Shown here: in pieces, positions 36,520 through 63,070 of the stretch
Layout of the letters: the number at the start of each line of letters is the position of its first letter
How positions within the stretch are numbered: the stretch's first letter is position 1
Assembly (NCBI RefSeq): GCF_028307215.1
Contig: NZ_JAQMHV010000004.1
Location: forward strand, 124,001 to 188,000
Direction of reading: 5' to 3'
Origin: Falsirhodobacter sp. 20TX0035
Lineage (GTDB): Bacteria > Pseudomonadota > Alphaproteobacteria > Rhodobacterales > Rhodobacteraceae
DNA length: 64,000 nucleotides
Translations under genes and position numbers: made by a program
Notes under the pieces: model-generated
Databases searched by the model: none
The model's input: only the letters and a program-made list of their open reading frames with translations
Told to the model about the DNA's origin: nothing

Positions 36520-36526
36520 GAATGGA

Positions 36527-36552
36527 AAAGCCGCCCTTGGGGGCGGCTTCTT
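36527..36552 (+). terminator. First of two tandem hairpins after the symporter gene
   Basis: AAGCCGCCC-TTGG-GGGCGGCTT followed by CTTCC. It forms a 9-bp perfect stem seven bases after the symporter stop. The T tract is interrupted, so it may leak, which could explain the second copy downstream. Confidence 0.85.
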
Positions 36553-36570
36553 CCACAGACAAGAAACACC

Positions 36571-36600
36571 AAAGCCGCCCTTCGGGGCGGCTTTTCCTTT
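36571..36600 (+). terminator. Second tandem hairpin, nearly identical to the first
   Basis: AAAGCCGCCC-TTCG-GGGCGGCTTTTCCTTT. The stem is the same sequence as the one 44 bases upstream, but with a UUCG loop and a better T tract. It also faces the end of the small minus-strand gene and may terminate it in reverse. Confidence 0.9.
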
Positions 36601-54291: not shown

Positions 54292-55386
54292 ATGATGAGT
54301 GAGAAGAGAGCGCATTACCTTTTGCTAGATGGCGCGCGCGGAATAGCGGCAATTTGCATTCTGCTATATCATCTGGGTGATTACTTCGGTGGCCTGAGAT
54401 TCCTCCAAGGCTCTTTCCTGGCCGTTGACATGTTCTTCCTCATGAGCGGTTTTGTCATCGCCCTCACGTATGAGCGCTCCTTGACGAACGGGAGCCGGCC
54501 ATTCCTGTCATTTGTATGGACCAGGGTTCTCAGGCTCTATCCGCTTTACCTTATGGCATGCTGCCTTGGTGCTTTTTATTTCATTACCAAGTATCTGATG
54601 AACATGGAGGGAGCGCCCACCGCTTCGGAGTTATTGAGGGTCTTGCCTGCGACTGTCTTCCTGGCTCCTTGGCCGGAGGCTGTAGAGTGGGGCTTTACGC
54701 CTTACCCATTCGCTTCGTCCGCGTGGAGCCTGAGCCTAGAACTCTGGTACAACATCCTTTACGCCATCCTCGCGATACATCTCGGGACAAGAATGCTTCT
54801 TGTCGTCATCGCCGTGTCTTTGGCAATTCTGCTCCAACAAGGCCTTCACTTCGACACCCTGGACATGGGCTGGAGCATGGCGACTGCCTTGGGCGGATCC
54901 GCCCGCTTCTGGCTATCATTCGGGGTGGGCATACTGATTTATCGGCATCAACTTCACAGGCTCGCTACGCCAAAACTTCCAATCTACGTGTACATGCTGT
55001 GCTTCGCATTCGTCTTCATTCCTCGAGACGCAATAGCATTGTCGATGTTTTGGATCGCAGTGGTGTTTCCTGTTACCGTTATAGCGGGTGGCGCCCGACA
55101 AGTTAATGGACTTGCCGCCTTCCTATGCAATCATCTGGGCCGCATGTCCTACGGGATCTACATTCTGCATGCTCCTGTTATTCTGCTTCAAACAGGAGTG
55201 CTCAAGATACTTCTTGGTAACTCATGGGAAGATTACAAAGCTCAGATCGGCATCTCCATCATTCTGTCGGTTCTTATCATCGCCTGGATCGGAACCTACC
55301 TTTTCGATGAGCCTGTCCGCCGCCGTCTGAAAGCGTGGAGTGGTAAACGATCTGGTACAACCTTGCCTCCCACCTTGTCGGCATGA
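54292..55386 (+). CDS. Membrane acyltransferase of the OafA/YrhL (acyltransferase 3) family
   Basis: A 364-residue integral membrane protein that most likely O-acetylates a surface or periplasmic glycan. Seen: the signature 'YLLLDGARGIAAICILLYHL' near residues 9-28 with the conserved Arg and active-site His, 'FLAVDMFFLMSGFVIALTYER' near 42-62 (F-F-x-x-S-G-F), 'FVWTRVLRLYPLYLM' (R-x-R-I/L-x-P), about ten hydrophobic segments and the end 'LGRMSYGIYILHAPVIL'. There is no C-terminal SGNH domain. No ribosome site is evident at the ATG pair. It is AT-richer than the neighbours and sits alone in a foreign-looking region, consistent with horizontal transfer. Confidence 0.9.
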   Translation: MMSEKRAHYLLLDGARGIAAICILLYHLGDYFGGLRFLQGSFLAVDMFFLMSGFVIALTYERSLTNGSRPFLSFVWTRVLRLYPLYLMACCLGAFYFITKYLMNMEGAPTASELLRVLPATVFLAPWPEAVEWGFTPYPFASSAWSLSLELWYNILYAILAIHLGTRMLLVVIAVSLAILLQQGLHFDTLDMGWSMATALGGSARFWLSFGVGILIYRHQLHRLATPKLPIYVYMLCFAFVFIPRDAIALSMFWIAVVFPVTVIAGGARQVNGLAAFLCNHLGRMSYGIYILHAPVILLQTGVLKILLGNSWEDYKAQIGISIILSVLIIAWIGTYLFDEPVRRRLKAWSGKRSGTTLPPTLSA

Positions 55387-56076
55387 CAGCTTCCTGCTTC
55401 GGAAGAAGTGGAAGAGGTAGTACGATAGGTCATCCTTGACCCCACAGGAGAAATTGTTCACCCGGCTCACGGCATCAAGGGGCACACCGATCCCGCCTTC
55501 GGATCAGCATATCATCAAGCCGCGTAGGCTACAGAGGTCACGAGTGCTTCCTGGACAACATGATCATCCTGAACCAACCATCACCTCGGTGATCAGCATG
55601 ACATTCATGACCCGCTTGATGTTGTGGAGCACAACTTTCCATAAGCGCGCAACATCGGGAGCAGATTTCACCAGTCGTCGCTGGGTCACCCTGAACGTCA
55701 GGCTGTCCTTATGGGCCTAAGGGTCATGTAGATGTTGTCGTCCGTAGCCCGATTCACCGTGCGCCCGCACGCTCGCGTCGGAGCGGATGACGATGATCTC
55801 TTGATCACTCAAACTCTCATGCCCGACAAAGATAACCTACATACTGATTGAACATCCCGGTGCAATTTAACTGCATTCGTTCGACGGGAGCCGAGATTGT
55901 AGGCCACCGCCACGTGCCTTGCCCCAGCAGATCGACACGGGCGTGCATTTATCCGGATCGAAGTGCCGATCCCTCATCAGCGGACATCAAAAGTCGCGGC
56001 CAATGCAGAGGTTTCGAGGGCCGGGATAGATAGACCTCCACATTTCAATCAATTTCAAATACACGAGCAGGCAATT
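55387..56076. other. Gene-free stretch, right part of the island
   Basis: About 690 bases with no complete gene. Frames are short and interrupted on both strands, as in decayed insertion-sequence DNA. One fragment (55564-55716, minus) is listed separately. The last 40 bases before the cysA stop are AT-rich and contain TTTCAATCAATTTCAAAT plus a nearby CAATTTCAA, a small run of TTTCAA-type direct repeats. Confidence 0.55.
55564..55716 (-). pseudogene. Possible transposase C-terminal remnant
   Basis: A minus-strand frame of about 50 codons bounded by TAG and TGA with no start. It contains 'VLHNIKRVMNVM', which recalls the helix near the C-terminal end of IS1182/IS5-group DDE transposases (Y-N-L-K-R-x-x-N-I-L). 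The match is short, and surrounding frames do not supply the catalytic residues, so it is at most a relic. It supports the view that this stretch is degraded mobile DNA. Confidence 0.25.
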
Positions 56077-56796
56077 TCAAGCCGAGATGAACTCCCGCAC
56101 GAAGGCCGTTGCCGGGGCGGCGCGGATGTCCTGGGGGCGGCCGACCTGCTCGATGCGGCCCATGGACATCACGACCACCAGATCCGCCAGTTCCATCGCT
56201 TCATCCTGATCGTGGGTCACGAAGACGGTGGTCAGGCCCGTCGTGTCGTGGATCTCGCGCAGGCCCTGCCGCAACTCCTTGCGGACACGTGCGTCGAGGG
56301 CGCCGAAAGGTTCGTCCAGCAGCAGCATCCGCGGCTCGATCGCAAGGGCCCGGGCCAAGGCCACGCGCTGGCGCTGACCACCCGACAGCTGGCTGGGATA
56401 GCGCTGCCCGATGTCCGGCAGCTGGATCAGGTCCAAGAGCTTCGTGACGCGACGGGTGATCTCGGCCGCTTCGGGGCGGGTCCGGCGGGGACGCGCGCGC
56501 AAGCCGTAAGCGATGTTCTCGAACACGGTCATGTGGCGGAACAGGGCATAGGACTGGAAGACGAAGCCCGCCCGCCGTTCCTGCACCGTCAGGCCGGTCG
56601 CGTCCACGCCGTCGAACAGCACCCGGCCAGAGGTCGGAAACTCCAACCCACCCAAAATGCGCAGCAGCGTCGTCTTGCCCGATCCTGAGGGCCCCAGCAG
56701 CGCCACCAGCGCGCCCGAGGGCAGGTTCAGTGCCAGGGGATGCAAAGCGGTGGTCGCGCCGAAGGTCTTGGCGATCTCGTCGATCTGGATGTGCAT
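56077..56796 (-). CDS. cysA: Sulfate ABC transporter ATPase CysA, C-terminally shortened
   Basis: A 239-residue nucleotide-binding subunit of the sulfate/thiosulfate importer. Seen: Walker A '[20 protein letters not shown]', Q-loop '[15 protein letters not shown]', signature '[16 protein letters not shown]' near 140, Walker B '[12 protein letters not shown]' and switch His in '[20 protein letters not shown]'. The ATPase core is complete. Family members usually run to about 330-365 residues with a TOBE-type regulatory domain. Here a stop follows 'AFVREFISA' exactly where AT-rich foreign DNA starts. The shortening is seen in length, but loss by insertion or deletion is inference. Confidence 0.9.
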
Positions 56797-56804
56797 GATG
56801 GACC

Positions 56805-57662
56805 TCAATGGCGGCGGGTGGCGGCAAGCTGGTCGGCATAGCGCCATTCCAGCAGGGACTTGATGGCAAGGGTGACCAGCGCCAGCAGGGCCAGCAGGGC
56901 GGCCATGCTGAAGGCGGCGACGGACAGGTATTCGTTGTACATCATCTCGATCGTGATGGGCATGGTGGCGGTTTCCCCCCGGATCTTGCCGGAGACGACG
57001 GCGACGGCCCCGAATTCGCCCATGGCGCGCGCGTTGCACAACAGCACGCCATACAGAAGCGCCCAGCGGATGTTCGGCAGCGTCACCGTCCGCAGCACCC
57101 GCCAGCCGGAGGCGCCGAGGGTCAGGGCGGCCTCCTCTTCGGCGCGGCCCTGTTCGATCATCACGGGGATCAGTTCGCGGGCGACAAAGGGAAAGGTCAC
57201 GAAGACGGTGGCCAGGATGATGCCCGGCAAGGCGAAGACGATGGGGTAGCCGTTGCCGATCAACCAGCTGCCCAGCAGGGAATGGCTGCCGAACAGCAGC
57301 ACGAAGCACAGCCCCGCCACCACCGGAGAGACGGAGAACGGCAGGTCGATCAGCGTGATCAGCACCGTCTTGCCCGGGAAGTCGAACTTGGTGATGGCCC
57401 AAGCGGCCGCGATCCCAAAGATCGCGTTCACCGGCACCGATACGGCGGCCACGATCAGCGTCAGGCGGATCGCCTCCCACGCGTCAGGCTGGGCCAGGGA
57501 GGCCACCGCCGCCCGCCCCCCGTCGGACAGGGCCTGGGCGAAGACGGCGATCAGCGGCGCGGCCACCAGGATCGCCAGGCCGCCCACGGCCAGAAGGATC
57601 AGGACAAGGCGCACGATCCGCGACTCTTCGGTGGCGGCGCGGGGCACTGGGATGTCAGACAA
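56805..57662 (-). CDS. cysW: Sulfate ABC transporter permease CysW
   Basis: A 285-residue inner-membrane permease subunit. Seen: about six hydrophobic segments, the permease coupling motif (EAA loop) '[31 protein letters not shown]' near 175-205, and CysW-type end '[31 protein letters not shown]' (about 220-250). The start is TTG 57662, which overlaps the cysT stop by 8 bases. No ATG fits without losing TM1. Eight bases separate it from cysA. It forms a heterodimer with CysT. Confidence 0.95.
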
Positions 57663-58479
57663 GACCGATCCTCCGACGGCTCCAGATCTGGACCGCGTTG
57701 ATGATGAACAGCATGGAGAAGGAGATCGCCAGCATCGCAAGACCGATCGCCGCCGCGCCCGCGATGTCGAACTCCTCCAGGCGGATGACGATCAGAAGGG
57801 GAGCGATCTCGGTCTTCAATGGAATGTTGCCCGCGATGAAGATGACGGATCCGTATTCCCCCACAGCCCGCGCCAAGGACAGCGCGAAGCCCGTCAGGGC
57901 GGCGGGCAGCAGCGTCGGCAGCACCACGCGGCGCAGCGTCATCCCGCGGCTGGCGCCCAGGCTGGCGGAGGCTTCCTCCACCTCGCGGTCCAGCTCCTCC
58001 ACCACCGGCTGGACGGTGCGGGTGACAAAGGGCAGGCCCACGAAGACCAGCGCCACGAAGATGCCCCACTGGGTGTAGGCGATCTTCCACGGCAGCGCGG
58101 CGCCCAGCACCCCGTTCGGCGCATAGAGCGCGGTCAGGGCGATCCCGGCCACCGCCGTCGGCAGCGCGAAGGGAAGATCCACCGCCGCGTCGATCAGCTT
58201 GCGGCCCGGAAAGCGGTAGCGCACCAGCACCCAGGCCAGCAGCACCCCGAACACGAGGTTAAACAGCGCCGCGAACAGCGCCAGCCGGAACGACAGGTAC
58301 AGCGCCGCCGCCACCCGCGGGCTGCTGACGGCCGCCCACCAGGCGGACGGGCCAAGGCTGGCCCCCTGAAGGATCAGCGCGGCGATGGGGAGGAGGACCA
58401 CCAGCGACAGCATCGTCACCGTGATCCCCATCGCCAGCCCGAACCCGGGCATGGGGGAGGAACGGGCGATCCGCATCAT
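57655..58479 (-). CDS. cysT: Sulfate ABC transporter permease CysT (CysU)
   Basis: A 274-residue inner-membrane permease. Seen: TM1 'GITVTMLSLVVLLPIAALIL', 'DAAVDLPFALPTAVAGIALTALYAPNGVLG' region (about 96-125), the EAA loop 'EVEEASASLGASRGMTLRRVVLPTLLPAALTG', and 'ARAVGEYGSVIFIAGNIPLKTEIAPLLIVIRLEEFD' (about 203-238), all typical of CysT. The ATG overlaps the cysP stop as ATGA; a second ATG is one codon downstream. Order cysP-cysT-cysW-cysA is the standard operon. Confidence 0.96.
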   Translation of the reverse strand: MMRIARSSPMPGFGLAMGITVTMLSLVVLLPIAALILQGASLGPSAWWAAVSSPRVAAALYLSFRLALFAALFNLVFGVLLAWVLVRYRFPGRKLIDAAVDLPFALPTAVAGIALTALYAPNGVLGAALPWKIAYTQWGIFVALVFVGLPFVTRTVQPVVEELDREVEEASASLGASRGMTLRRVVLPTLLPAALTGFALSLARAVGEYGSVIFIAGNIPLKTEIAPLLIVIRLEEFDIAGAAAIGLAMLAISFSMLFIINAVQIWSRRRIGLV

Positions 58480-59471
58480 TTCGCCGTGTAGATCTGGTCG
58501 AACACGCCGCCATCCCCGAACTGTTCGGCCTGAACCTTATCCCAGCCTCCCAGATCCGCGATGTTCACCAGTTCAAGCTGCGGCAGCCGTGCCACGTCTT
58601 CCGGATCGGCCTTGGAGGTGTCCCAGGCGCGGTAGTAGTGCTTGAACGCGATCGCCTGCGCCTCGGGCGTGTAGAGCCATTCGAGATAGCCCTGCGCGAG
58701 CGCCCGCTGATCGTCGGTCTTGATGTTGCCTTCGACCACCGCCACCGGCGGTTCGGCCAGGATCGACACCGAGGGGACCACGATCTCGAAATCGTCGCCG
58801 ATCTCGTTCAGGGCCAGGTAGGCCTCGTTTTCCCAGGCCAGCAGGACGTCGCCCATGCCGCGCTGAGCAAAGGTGGTCGTGGCGCCGCGCGCGCCGCTGT
58901 CCAGCACCGGCACATGCTTGAACAGCTCGCCCACAAAGGCCTTCGGGTCCTGCCCCGCCTTTTCCGCCCAGGCCCAGGCGGCCATGTAGTTCCAGCGCGC
59001 CCCGCCCGAAGTCTTGGGGTTCGGCGTGATCACCTCCACCCCGTCCTTGATCAGGTCCGGCCAGTCCTTGATGTTCTTCGGGTTGTCCTTGCGCACAAGG
59101 AACACGATGGTCGAGGTGTAGGGCGACGCGTTGTGCGGCAGCTTCGTCTGCCAATCCTCGGGGATCTTGCCCGTGTCGGCGATGCGGTCGATGTCGGGTG
59201 CCAGCGCCAGCGTCACCACCTGCGCGTCCAGCCCGTCCACCACCGCGCGGGCCTGGCTGCCCGATCCGCCATGGCTGGTCTGGATCTGGGGCTTGTCGTG
59301 GCCCTGCTTCACCCACCAGTCCGCGAACTGCGCGTTCACGTCGCGGTACAGCTCGCGCGTCGGGTCGTAGCTGACGTTCAGAAGCTGCTCGGCATAGGCC
59401 GCCTGCCCCGCCACCGAAAGCGCCATGGCCAAGGCGGCCGAGGTCAACCGAATGGAAAATCGCTGCATCAC
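58476..59471 (-). CDS. cysP: Sulfate/thiosulfate-binding periplasmic protein
   Basis: A 331-residue periplasmic substrate-binding protein. Seen: signal peptide 'FSIRLTSAALAMALSVAGQAAYA', then 'LLNVSYDPTRELYRDVNAQFADWW' near 30-53, 'SHGGSGSQARAVVDGLDAQVVTLAL' with the anion-binding Ser-Gly-Ser loop, 'ITPNPKTSGGARWNYMAAWAW' and 'AWENEAYLAL'. GTG 59471 is eight bases from GGAGG; the next codon is ATG, an equally possible start. First gene of the cys operon. Confidence 0.95.
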   Translation of the reverse strand: MMQRFSIRLTSAALAMALSVAGQAAYAEQLLNVSYDPTRELYRDVNAQFADWWVKQGHDKPQIQTSHGGSGSQARAVVDGLDAQVVTLALAPDIDRIADTGKIPEDWQTKLPHNASPYTSTIVFLVRKDNPKNIKDWPDLIKDGVEVITPNPKTSGGARWNYMAAWAWAEKAGQDPKAFVGELFKHVPVLDSGARGATTTFAQRGMGDVLLAWENEAYLALNEIGDDFEIVVPSVSILAEPPVAVVEGNIKTDDQRALAQGYLEWLYTPEAQAIAFKHYYRAWDTSKADPEDVARLPQLELVNIADLGGWDKVQAEQFGDGGVFDQIYTAK

Positions 59472-59503
59472 GGGGTCATCCTCCCTGTTCCGTTGTCTTA
59501 ATT

Positions 59504-59520
59504 ACGACAGGGCTTGTCGT
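59504..59520. promoter_or_regulatory. Short inverted repeat upstream of the sulfate operon
   Basis: ACGACA-(GGGCT)-TGTCGT, a perfect 6-bp inverted repeat with a 5-base spacer, 33 bases before the cysP start. On the minus strand a promoter-like TTGTAA lies just upstream and TAATTA just downstream, but 19 bases apart. Position and symmetry suit a repressor or activator site for sulfate-starvation control (a CysB/Cbl-type or other regulator). Identity not deducible. Confidence 0.35.
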
Positions 59521-59741
59521 GTTTTACAACAGAATGGATTCGGCAAAGTAGCGCCGAGAAAGAGAATGGTATTCCCTGATCCGGCCAGTCCGCAGCCTTT
59601 CGCATCAGGGCAACCGCCATTGCGATCATGATGCGCTGACGCTGCCTGCGGCCGTCCATGTGTTCGTCCATCGGTGCCGGATCCTGAATGCAAAGCGGGC
59701 CGCCCCTTGGGACGGCCCGCCAGATCAAACGAAGGGGATCA

Positions 59742-60662
59742 TCAGCCGTTCGCGACGGCTGGCGCCTTGCGCTGGGCGTTCAGCAGAAGACGCGCGGTCT
59801 TCCCGTTCATCGATGCCCACAGCTCATGCTCCCCCACAAGGGACGCGACAGCGCGCAACGCATCGCCATCCGACACGGACTGCGCCCGCGCGGCGATGTC
59901 CATCAGCGTGCCGGCCTCCGGCGCGGTGCGTGCGGATTGCAGCATGGTGGCCAGCGCGTTCTTCGTGTCGCCTTCGAACCACAAGGAAAGGCCCTGCGCC
60001 CACAGGCCCTTTGCACTGTTCGGCGCGAAGATGGGCTTCACCTTCTTCGGGACATAGCCGTTCAGGCTCTTCTCAAGAAAGGGAACAAGCTGCCCCGCCT
60101 CGTCCAGCGCCCGGGCGGTGTCCGTTCCCGCTAGAAACAACGGCTGCGATTGCGCTTGCGGATATGCCGGCTGCAACCATTGGGCGACAAGCGTCTGCGC
60201 CGCCGCGTCAGCCGGGTCGAAAACCACGGTCGCGGTTCCCTCATGCTTCGCAAGATCGGTCAGCGCTTCGGCATGGGTCCATTCGCCCCCCGCCGCACCC
60301 CGGCCCAGCGTCGGATGCCCGTCATGGCGCGGAGAGAAGGCGATGATCTGCGACGCGATCGCACTGCCGAAGTAGATGGCGGCATAGCCCCCCACCCCCG
60401 ACCCGCAGGTGATGGCCTTCCGCCCGTCCAAAACCGACGTCAGCGCCTCCGCAACATCTTCGACCTCCAATCCCTGATAAGCCGAGGCGGAGGAGATGTG
60501 GATCGTCTCGTGCCCCCGCTCCAGCGCCAGTTGCGTCCAGGGGCCAGCGTCCGACATTCCGCTCTCTCCGAAGGTGATCAGAACCCTCGTCTTCCGCGAC
60601 CGTTCGGGGCGATGATGAACGATGCGATGGTTCGGGCGGGTCAGAAGCACTTCGGAAGACAT
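59742..60662 (-). CDS. Unknown protein, alpha/beta-hydrolase-like fold, possibly non-catalytic
   Basis: A 306-residue soluble protein. The centre reads 'AITCGSGVGGYAAIYFGSAI' (about 92-111), which has the shape of a nucleophile elbow as in surface-glycan-associated hydrolases (C-G-S-S-M-G-G-Y-A-A). The position of the nucleophile Ser is Gly here. The start 'RKTRVLITFGESG' could be the first beta strand, and the C-terminal 90 residues look helical and repeat-like ('LWFEGDTKNALATMLQSARTAPEAG'), as in TPR units. ATG 60662 has AGGGACG upstream. Fold assignment is inference; function unknown. Confidence 0.65.
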   Translation of the reverse strand: MSSEVLLTRPNHRIVHHRPERSRKTRVLITFGESGMSDAGPWTQLALERGHETIHISSASAYQGLEVEDVAEALTSVLDGRKAITCGSGVGGYAAIYFGSAIASQIIAFSPRHDGHPTLGRGAAGGEWTHAEALTDLAKHEGTATVVFDPADAAAQTLVAQWLQPAYPQAQSQPLFLAGTDTARALDEAGQLVPFLEKSLNGYVPKKVKPIFAPNSAKGLWAQGLSLWFEGDTKNALATMLQSARTAPEAGTLMDIAARAQSVSDGDALRAVASLVGEHELWASMNGKTARLLLNAQRKAPAVANG

Positions 60663-60792
60663 TGGAACGTCCCTATGATGGATAGGAAAGGCGATAACAG
60701 CCCCAGTGGCCGATTCTGTCGAGGGCAAAACGCCGTGAGGTGGCGGCGCATGGCCGCTGGCGGGCCTGCCAACCGCCGGATATACGGGGCAC

Positions 60793-61128
60793 ATGACCCA
60801 AGATCTTCCCCCCTGCCCCGAATGCGCCTCGCCCCACAGCTATGAACAGGATCCGCTGCTGATCTGCCCCGAATGCGGGCATGAATGGCAGGTGTCCGCG
60901 GCCGAGGATGCCCCCGTGCGCGACGCCGTCGGCAACATCCTGCAGAACGGCGACACGGTGACGGTGATCAAGGATCTGAAGGTGAAAGGGTCGTCGCTGA
61001 CGGTGAAAGTGGGCACGAAGGTGCGCAATATCACCTTGGTGGACGGCGATCACGACATCGACTGCAAGATCCCGGGCATCGGCCCCATGGGTCTGAGATC
61101 GCAGTTCGTGAAGAAGGTTTCGGGCTGA
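60793..61128 (+). CDS. yjdM: Zinc-ribbon protein YjdM (PhnA family)
   Basis: A 111-residue protein of the YjdM/PhnA family, once thought to act in alkylphosphonate use. Seen: N-terminal zinc ribbon 'CPECASPHSYEQDPLLICPECGHEW' (Cys pairs at about 8-11 and 26-29), then the PhnA core 'VRDAVGNILQNGDTVTVIKDLKVKGSS' and 'KVRNITLVDGDHDIDCKIPGIGPMGLRSQFVKK' (about 76-108). Length and end are standard. Actual function remains unsettled. Divergent from the preceding gene. Confidence 0.95.
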   Translation: MTQDLPPCPECASPHSYEQDPLLICPECGHEWQVSAAEDAPVRDAVGNILQNGDTVTVIKDLKVKGSSLTVKVGTKVRNITLVDGDHDIDCKIPGIGPMGLRSQFVKKVSG

Positions 61129-61255
61129 TCCGGTCGGCAACCTGCAGACCAAAATAGACACCTCGGAGCCATGCAAATCATGCAGGCAACAAGACAGCAC
61201 AACCATAAGTTGTGGAGCACATTAACTATTTTTTAACGAATTGCCACTCTTGGGA

Positions 61256-61283
61256 TTGACGCAATTGCCGGTTGCGGTAGATA
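61256..61283 (+). promoter_or_regulatory. Promoter-like signal upstream of a structured element
   Basis: TTGACG and TAGATA separated by 16 bases in AT-rich DNA, with no coding sequence downstream. A transcript would begin near 61290 and run into the perfect hairpin at 61338-61397. Confidence 0.4.
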
Positions 61284-61289
61284 TCACTT

Positions 61290-61440
61290 ACCCGTCACCC
61301 GAGTAACGATTAGCTCCTTATGTGATGGCTAGCGGGTGTTGGAGCTAGGCGGTGAGGTCCGACGCCCTGCATCCAAGAATAGCCGCCTAGCTCCAACTTT
61401 TACAAATTTTATATATGTGAAGTCACGGCGTCGGGTTGAC
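61290..61440 (+). ncRNA. Candidate structured small RNA
   Basis: Downstream of the promoter-like signal, 15 bases at 61338-61352 (GTTGGAGCTAGGCGG) are exactly complementary to 61383-61397, closing a 30-base loop. Eight loop bases (61359-61366, CCGACGCC) are exactly complementary to 61427-61434 (GGCGTCGG) beyond the stem, which would form a pseudoknot. The stem is followed by CTTTTACAAATTTT, which could act as a loose terminator. No known RNA family is recognised. An insertion relic with inverted arms is the alternative. Only the base pairing is seen; transcription is inferred. Confidence 0.35.
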
Positions 61441-61726
61441 GTGTATCCTTCATGGGTGAACACTGGACGTCCGGGGTTATGCCCGCAGGCGGCGGTGCAT
61501 CGTACGGGATGCAACCGTCGCCGAGCATTCGAGCTGACATGACCCTCGCCGAGTGCGCAATGAACCGCTTCAGCCGCACTGTTTCAAAAGGAATGGGGAT
61601 CACTTCCGCCAGCAAGCTCGTGGGCAGATGCAGCCCACGCTGTAAACTGCTTGGTATCACCCAGACGCACAAAAGCAGCGTCCAGACTTCCACCAAGGGA
61701 TTCTTGCCGCGAATGTCTTTGGATAA

Positions 61727-61803
61727 TGGTGCACCCAGCACGATTCGAACGTGCGACCTTTGCCTTCGGAGGGCAACGCTCTATCCAGCTGAGCTATGGG
61801 TGC
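61727..61803 (-). tRNA. tRNA-Arg (CCG anticodon)
   Basis: A 77-nt minus-strand cloverleaf with encoded CCA. Acceptor GCACCCA pairs with TGGGTGC, the anticodon loop CTCCGAA gives CCG (reads CGG), and the T arm has CGTTCGAATCG. D arm AGCTCAGCTGGATAGAGC is standard. Confidence 0.96.
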
Positions 61804-61849: not shown

Positions 61850-63070
61850 CTATCCGAAAAGATCGTGGCAAAGCTCGAGGCCCGAGACGAGGGCGTCGAT
61901 CTCACCTTCGGTGTTGTAAAGGCCGAAGCTGGCGCGGCAGGTGGCCCCCACGCCCAGATGCTGCAGCAGCGGCAAGGCGCAATGGGTGCCCGCCCGAACT
62001 GCGATCCCGCGCTGGTCCAGAATCGTGGACACGTCATGGGCATGGGCCGCCCCTTCCAGCGTGAAGGAGAAGATCGCGCCCTTGGTGTCGGACTGCCCCT
62101 GCACGTTCAGCCAGTTCAGCCCCGCCAGCCGATCCCGCGCCACGTCGCGCAGCCGCCGTTCATGCGCCGCGATGTTGTCCATCCCAAGCGCCATCATATA
62201 TTCCAGCGCCGCGCCGAACCCGATCTGGGACACGATGCCGGGCGTGCCCGCCTCGAACCGCAAGGGGGGACGGGCGTAGGTCACAGTGTCGCGGGTCACG
62301 GTGTCGATCATGTCGCCGCCGCCCATGAAGGGGCGCATCTCGGCCATCCGTTCTTTCCGGATGAAGATCGCGCCGGAGCTGCTGGGCCCGTAAAGCTTGT
62401 GGCCCGTGATCGCGTAGAAGTCGCAACCGATGGCCGACACGTCGACCGGCATGTGCACCGCCGCCTGCGACCCGTCCACCAGAACCGGAACCCCCTTGGT
62501 CTGCGCGCCCCGGCAGATCGCCGCCACGTCCAGCACGGTGCCCGTGACATTGGACATGTGCGTCACGGCCACCAGCTTCGTGCGCGGCCCGATGGCGTCG
62601 ATCACCGCCTGCGGATCGATGTCGCCCTTGGCATCGCACTCCACCCATTTCAGCACCACGCCCTGACGTTCGCGCAGGAAGTGCCACGGCACGATGTTGG
62701 CGTGATGCTCCATGATCGTCAGGACGATCTCATCCCCCGCCTGAAGCCGTGGCGCGGCCCAGCCATAGGAGACGAGGTTGATCCCGTTGGTGGACCCGGC
62801 CGTGTGGATGATCTCCTCTGGGTCCGCTACGTTCAGGAACCGCGCGACCGTGCCCCGCACCGCCTCGTACCGCTCGGTCGCGGTGGTGGACAGCGTGTGC
62901 AGGCCGCGGTGCACGTTGGCGTATTCGTAGCTGTAGGCCCGCGTGATCGCGTCGATCACCGCTTGCGGCTTCTGCGCCGAGGCACCGTTGTCGAGGTAGA
63001 CGAGCGGCTTGCCGTTCACCTCGCGCGACAGGATCGGAAAATCGCGGCGGACCGCCTGAACGTCATACAT
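61850..63070 (-). CDS. sufS: Cysteine desulfurase SufS
   Basis: A 406-residue PLP enzyme (class II cysteine desulfurase) that supplies sulfur to SufE and the SufBCD scaffold. Seen: 'FPILSREVNGKPLVYLDNGASAQKP' start, 'YANVHRGLHTLSTTATERYE' near 49-68, 'TIMEHHANIVPWH', the PLP-lysine motif 'YAITGHKLYGPSSSGAIF' near 220-237, and the catalytic Cys in 'VRAGTHCALPLLQHLG' near residue 362. GGGAGGCGG precedes the ATG, which overlaps the yip1 stop by 8 bases. Confidence 0.97.
   Translation of the reverse strand: MYDVQAVRRDFPILSREVNGKPLVYLDNGASAQKPQAVIDAITRAYSYEYANVHRGLHTLSTTATERYEAVRGTVARFLNVADPEEIIHTAGSTNGINLVSYGWAAPRLQAGDEIVLTIMEHHANIVPWHFLRERQGVVLKWVECDAKGDIDPQAVIDAIGPRTKLVAVTHMSNVTGTVLDVAAICRGAQTKGVPVLVDGSQAAVHMPVDVSAIGCDFYAITGHKLYGPSSSGAIFIRKERMAEMRPFMGGGDMIDTVTRDTVTYARPPLRFEAGTPGIVSQIGFGAALEYMMALGMDNIAAHERRLRDVARDRLAGLNWLNVQGQSDTKGAIFSFTLEGAAHAHDVSTILDQRGIAVRAGTHCALPLLQHLGVGATCRASFGLYNTEGEIDALVSGLELCHDLFG

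Follow-up and report, generated by a model that had tools for sequence, protein, structure and literature searches.

What is a perfect hairpin doing in a stretch without recognisable genes beside a tRNA gene of Falsirhodobacter sp. 20TX0035? The window, i.e., the whole stretch of 64,000 nucleotides that was analysed (assembly GCF_028307215.1, contig NZ_JAQMHV010000004.1, positions 124,001 to 188,000, forward strand), has near its right end a short interval between a phnA-like gene and tRNA-Arg in which a preliminary description, made from the letters of the DNA, saw a promoter-like signal followed by a possible pseudoknotted regulatory RNA, with the end of a mobile element as the main alternative. 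The interval and its neighbours, in window coordinates, are as follows.

60793 to 61128, plus strand: PhnA/YjdM-domain gene directly upstream of the gap (profile search)
61129 to 61726, no strand assigned: the gap from the phnA-like gene to tRNA-Arg, lower in GC, gene-free and present as a single genome copy; probable residue of inserted DNA
61727 to 61803, minus strand: tRNA-Arg(CCG), its 3' end towards the gap; integration site in the genus
61850 to 63070, minus strand: sufS-like gene (presumably sufS, the name being our assumption), the conserved neighbour of tRNA-Arg(CCG) in relatives' loci

The gap DNA next to tRNA-Arg (597 bp) has a GC content of 0.42-0.64 per 100-base step, compared with 0.58-0.71 in the flanks. 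The preliminary description recorded no gene here, and this holds: at E≤1, four open reading frames (ORFs) of the gap give no match in Pfam or PHROG, and their third-position GC (0.51-0.68) is unlike that of three neighbouring genes (0.78-0.88). A coding remnant was considered and rejected: searches with the minus-strand ORF 61409-61741 in viral contigs, plasmids, and 294 other genomes of the family brought up no relative. By blastn the gap occurs once in its own genome. Other kinds of element weighed and dropped with this single copy in view were an insertion sequence, an oriT, a retron, and an integron attC site, the last also because the arms of the hairpin do not resemble what we take to be the attC motif.

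Within the gap, the hairpin and the elements around it lie in the following order.

61338 to 61397 (arms 61338-61352 and 61383-61397), no strand assigned: perfect 15-bp inverted repeat with a 30-nt loop (sequence, fold, simulations)
61359 to 61366, plus strand: loop bases complementary to 61427-61434, possible 5' strand of a pseudoknot
61398 to 61413, plus strand: TTTTACAAATTTTATA, a T-rich tail that adjoins the stem (sequence reading)
61427 to 61434, plus strand: complement of the loop bases, possible 3' strand of a pseudoknot (sequence)
61489 to 61524, no strand assigned: second strong hairpin in the gap, with a 6-nt loop (fold)

The hairpin is real and non-random. Its arms are exact reverse complements, with letters and coordinates as first described, and the plus-strand RNA forms 16 pairs, including one G-U pair inside, around a loop of 28-30 nt. 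The 60-nt hairpin folds at -33.8 kcal/mol (z -6.1), and none of 200 shuffles is equally stable. Five perfect inverted repeats of the window lie within the limits of at least 12 for the arms and 3-60 for the gap; this one is the longest, and three of the four others have loops of 3-8 nt. Repeats with 15-bp arms appear in none of 5 and none of 100 simulated windows (first-order Markov, 64 kb each). A fairer yardstick, in our judgement, is real DNA of related organisms: 821 kb from 80 loci of related named genomes hold three perfect repeats that reach 15 bp or more at a gap of up to 60, so that a perfect 15-bp hairpin is uncommon, not unique. The loops of these three are 19, 22, and 38 nt long, and two of the repeats share one locus. 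Two repeats were recorded in passing. One, perfect over 18 bp around a 19-nt loop, belongs to a Rhodobacter metagenome-assembled genome (L139:7765-7819), where it lies 1.4 kb downstream of tRNA-Arg(CCG); the other, at 36524-36597 of the window, is a larger repeat of 13 bp with a tandem pair of short terminator-like hairpins inside it.

The perfection of the stem suggests recent arrival or selection. A neutral inverted repeat without function, arising for example from a replication template switch, agrees with the occurrence of such repeats in related genomes, where all loops are likewise 19 nt or longer, and with the fact that no conservation points to selection. We consider this origin unlikely, given 15 bp of perfect pairing in DNA otherwise without recognisable content and a T-rich tail that directly follows the stem. 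The hairpin is ordinary as a kind and lies in probable inserted DNA.

The loop is one part of the case for an RNA. As the preliminary description stated, 61359-61366 are exactly complementary to 61427-61434 over 8 nt, and the pairing extends to 10 of 11 positions (61359-61369 with 61424-61434); yet an 8-nt complement of a 30-nt loop arises in 29 of 1000 simulations with a partner region of 100 nt, and in 52 of 1000 with 200 nt. As evidence for a pseudoknot, the complement is weak, and it is probably a coincidence. Pseudoknot-free folds pair part of 61427-61434 with 61290-61294 or with bases further downstream.

Another part is a promoter-like signal upstream of the stem.

61256 to 61283, plus strand: promoter-like TTGACG-16-TAGATA (8 of 12 consensus bases)

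The pair of boxes is present as described, but agrees with TTGACA/TATAAT, the one promoter type scored, at 8 of 12 positions, and the last T of the -10 box is missing. It is one of 169 placements in the window (11 of them within the gap) that reach at least 8 of 12 at a spacing of 16-18 on either strand, and a promoter scan at its threshold reports none; the pair is not above chance. Many of the weak blastn matches of 61185-61460 to family genomes fall on the promoter-like stretch. The idea that these mark a promoter of stable RNA genes was dropped because a tRNA lies within about 1.5 kb at none of the 15 loci inspected (of 29 foreign loci listed).

Folding of the wider segment bears on the same proposal, namely that a species-specific regulatory RNA of about 110-150 nt runs rightward from about 61290 and comprises a 5' hairpin (61297-61337, which appears in some folds), the long stem, and a pseudoknot from the loop to the 3' side. 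On the plus strand, 61290-61439 has a z of -2.9 and is equalled by 1 of 200 shuffles, and 61285-61545 has a z of -4.0 and is equalled by none of 200; these values, together with the exact 8-nt complement, speak for the proposal. Against it, the stem alone scores better than the whole (z -6.1), 61290-61337 by itself has a z of -0.4, the minus strand of 61290-61439 (z -4.7) outscores the plus strand, and the promoter-like pair is at chance level. The stretch after the stem (61398-61540) has a z of -3.5 in shuffle folding. Searches for relatives, given next, add to the points against, and a species-specific regulatory RNA at this position appears improbable.

At the gathering score, Rfam finds five tRNAs and nothing else in the whole window; at E≤5 there are two gap matches far below the gathering score (E 1.3 and 3.8). 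Of 101 relatives searched with the gap by blastn, three matched. One was the own genome; the matches in the other two, of 39 and 34 bases, fall within long ORFs at unrelated loci (presumably aldehyde-dehydrogenase-like and IF-2-like) and are taken as chance. Neither blastn nor a covariance model finds a relative of the hairpin in the six other genomes of the genus. When 61185-61460 was compared with 394 family genomes, at least 177 (own genome included) had a match at E≤1; among the matches listed, G415 alone falls below 1e-3 besides the own genome (9.6e-4, 29 bases), and the 393 other genomes yield no convincing relative of the hairpin among the matches listed, the rest being taken as chance. 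Hairpin and gap have no match in phages and plasmids. One arm, searched as a 15-mer, is found in 13 stretches of viral contigs; each of these shows one match with both strands counted, so that none carries both arms. The exact stem as a gapped pattern occurs in neither GTDB (one genome per species, 84,980 species) nor IMG/VR contigs, sets that may leave out the window's own record; since the pattern demands the exact letters of the stem, diverged homologues would be missed.

A covariance search against related genomes had been proposed as a check on the RNA; among the seven genomes of the genus the own locus is its sole match, and 79 of the 94 fetched sufS/tRNA-Arg loci, searched in the same way, gave no match. 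One sequence, entered twice, was all that went into the model, so that its reach is short. With no homologue found, there is no covariation to see. The seven window genes from 54292 to 61128 have no counterpart at E≤1e-10 beside sufS or tRNA-Arg in the 94 loci. Title listings gave no paper joining Falsirhodobacter with a small RNA.

The searches directed at the tRNA side of the gap give a clearer answer. The closest named genome by SufS protein is Falsirhodobacter deserti (88% identity). The tRNA-Arg(CCG) adjoins sufS in all seven genomes of the genus and lies downstream of it in 69 of 80 loci of named relatives (within 0.3 kb in 56 of the 69), some of the 80 loci ending at contig ends. In each of the 14 relatives compared, similarity to the window stops 0-11 bases beyond the end of the tRNA, and with the gap as query against the fetched loci blastn gives no match at E≤0.05 in the stretches that follow.

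In several genomes of the genus, an integrase or what looks like one lies beyond the tRNA. In G005 a PF00589 integrase comes right after tRNA-Arg(CCG), with a score of 27.4 bits at a cut-off of 27.1. The protein that follows the same tRNA in G002 has no Pfam match at 1e-5 and is 50% identical to the G005 integrase over 373 aa; in this genome a 51-bp stretch that begins at position 28 of the tRNA and extends one base beyond its end is repeated 6.09 kb away. The two repeats bound a 6.09-kb integrative element (L053:110-6246), whose tyrosine integrase points at tRNA-Arg(CCG). In the nearest relative (G006, L051:150-1300), tRNA-Arg(CCG) is directly followed by minus-strand pieces of a broken, integrase-like gene with stops, identified by reading of the motif. 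In G001 (L054:71-1402), tRNA-Arg(CCG) is followed 6 bases on by tRNA-Val(TAC) and then by a PF00589 integrase (4.6e-8), which may belong to tRNA-Val rather than to tRNA-Arg. No integrase was seen by eye among the first ORFs listed for G003 and G004. Across the wider set, PF00589 is found at 1e-5 in 4 of 125 ORFs (at most 2 ORFs per locus, 69 loci), and a genome of another genus (G012) has a serine recombinase at tRNA-Arg. Set against the findings within the genus, the 4 of 125 in the wider set indicate a hotspot that is plain in the genus and modest beyond. The use of tRNA-Arg(CCG) next to sufS for integration in this Falsirhodobacter-like genus is the better supported claim. Among close relatives, tRNA-Arg(CCG) (61727-61803 in the window) varies in the T-arm and in the base that precedes CCA, a variation that would be expected if elements had replaced the 3' end of the tRNA.

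In the own genome of the window, an assembly of 54 contigs that is 98.6% complete, a search with 20 nt of the tRNA 3' end brings up a single copy at up to 3 mismatches, and neither Pfam nor PHROG gives an integrase match for the ORFs of the gap. We therefore infer an insertion in the window from its context, that is, from the hotspot, the lower GC, and the finding of no convincing homologue. Mobile-element DNA next to tRNA-Arg, which the preliminary description had put forward as the alternative to an RNA, gains contextual support from the integrases of relatives and the G002 element. Its interpretation as a whole stands in part: the hairpin is non-random and the mobile-element alternative is strengthened, but a promoter-driven pseudoknotted RNA finds no independent support.

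An integration site also invites a reading at the level of DNA, in which the inverted repeat is a pair of binding sites from a mobile element (an operator, or an arm-type site of a recombinase or regulator) that acts as double-stranded DNA. Beyond the use of tRNA-Arg(CCG) for integration in a relative, this reading can point to the arm core TAGCTCC, which occurs a third time just upstream at 61311-61317, although such a 7-nt match (the longest complement of an arm within 61290-61337) is weak. The repeat lies at least 330 bp from the tRNA end, the gap ORFs match neither an integrase nor a regulator, and by blastn the genome contains the gap once; a binding site of this kind is possible but doubtful. 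Less probable still is a combination of the mobile and RNA readings, in which a young, species-specific pseudoknotted RNA would have arrived with an integrative element at tRNA-Arg(CCG) and been retained once the genes of the element were lost.

The explanation that we favour, and hold tentatively, is that the gap is a residue of inserted DNA at the tRNA hotspot, with a hairpin that would be terminator-like if transcribed and a loop complement that is probably coincidental. An integrative element would have docked at the 3' end of tRNA-Arg(CCG), as seen in a relative and as may have happened in the window, and a non-native residue of about 600 bp carrying the hairpin would have stayed there. 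If the residue is transcribed from the phnA side, the 16-pair, -34 kcal/mol stem followed by UUUUACAAAUUUU would most likely end the transcript or protect its 3' end. The phnA-like gene is co-directional, and its stop codon lies 209 nt upstream of the stem. On the minus strand no T-rich tail adjoins the stem, so that the terminator-like arrangement exists on the plus strand only; there, TTTTACAAATTTT after the stem gives four T and is then interrupted. A terminator scan with a loop limit of 3-8 nt does not list the hairpin at 61338-61397, the loop of which has 28-30 nt, and a loop of 30 nt, long for an intrinsic terminator, speaks against a classical one.

The locus provides a worked negative: together, a perfect stem and a brief complement to its loop do not suffice to identify a regulatory RNA where the promoter signal is no better than chance and searches bring up no relative; the better-supported by-product is the role of tRNA-Arg(CCG) beside sufS as an integration site in the genus. 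Should the RNA be real, it would illustrate how a mobile element can leave a new RNA gene behind.

Three known systems offer a comparison. Pseudoknotted regulatory RNAs of bacteria include riboswitches and small RNAs, and the locus shares with them the layout of a stem plus a complement from the loop to the 3' side; it differs in having no Rfam match at the gathering score, no promoter above chance, and no homologue found. Intrinsic (Rho-independent) terminators resemble it in the strong GC-rich stem followed by a T-rich tract on one strand, and in the position downstream of a co-directional gene, but the loop of 30 nt is not short, the run of T breaks off after four, and the hairpin is 209 nt past the phnA stop codon and absent from the scan. 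Compared with integration by tyrosine recombinases at tRNA 3' ends, the window is without an integrase match, a second att copy, or a recognisable element gene; it has, likewise, a stretch flush with a tRNA 3' end that is unlike the DNA at this place in all 14 relatives compared, and a member of the same genus, G002, carries both an integrase and 51-bp repeats at the very same tRNA.
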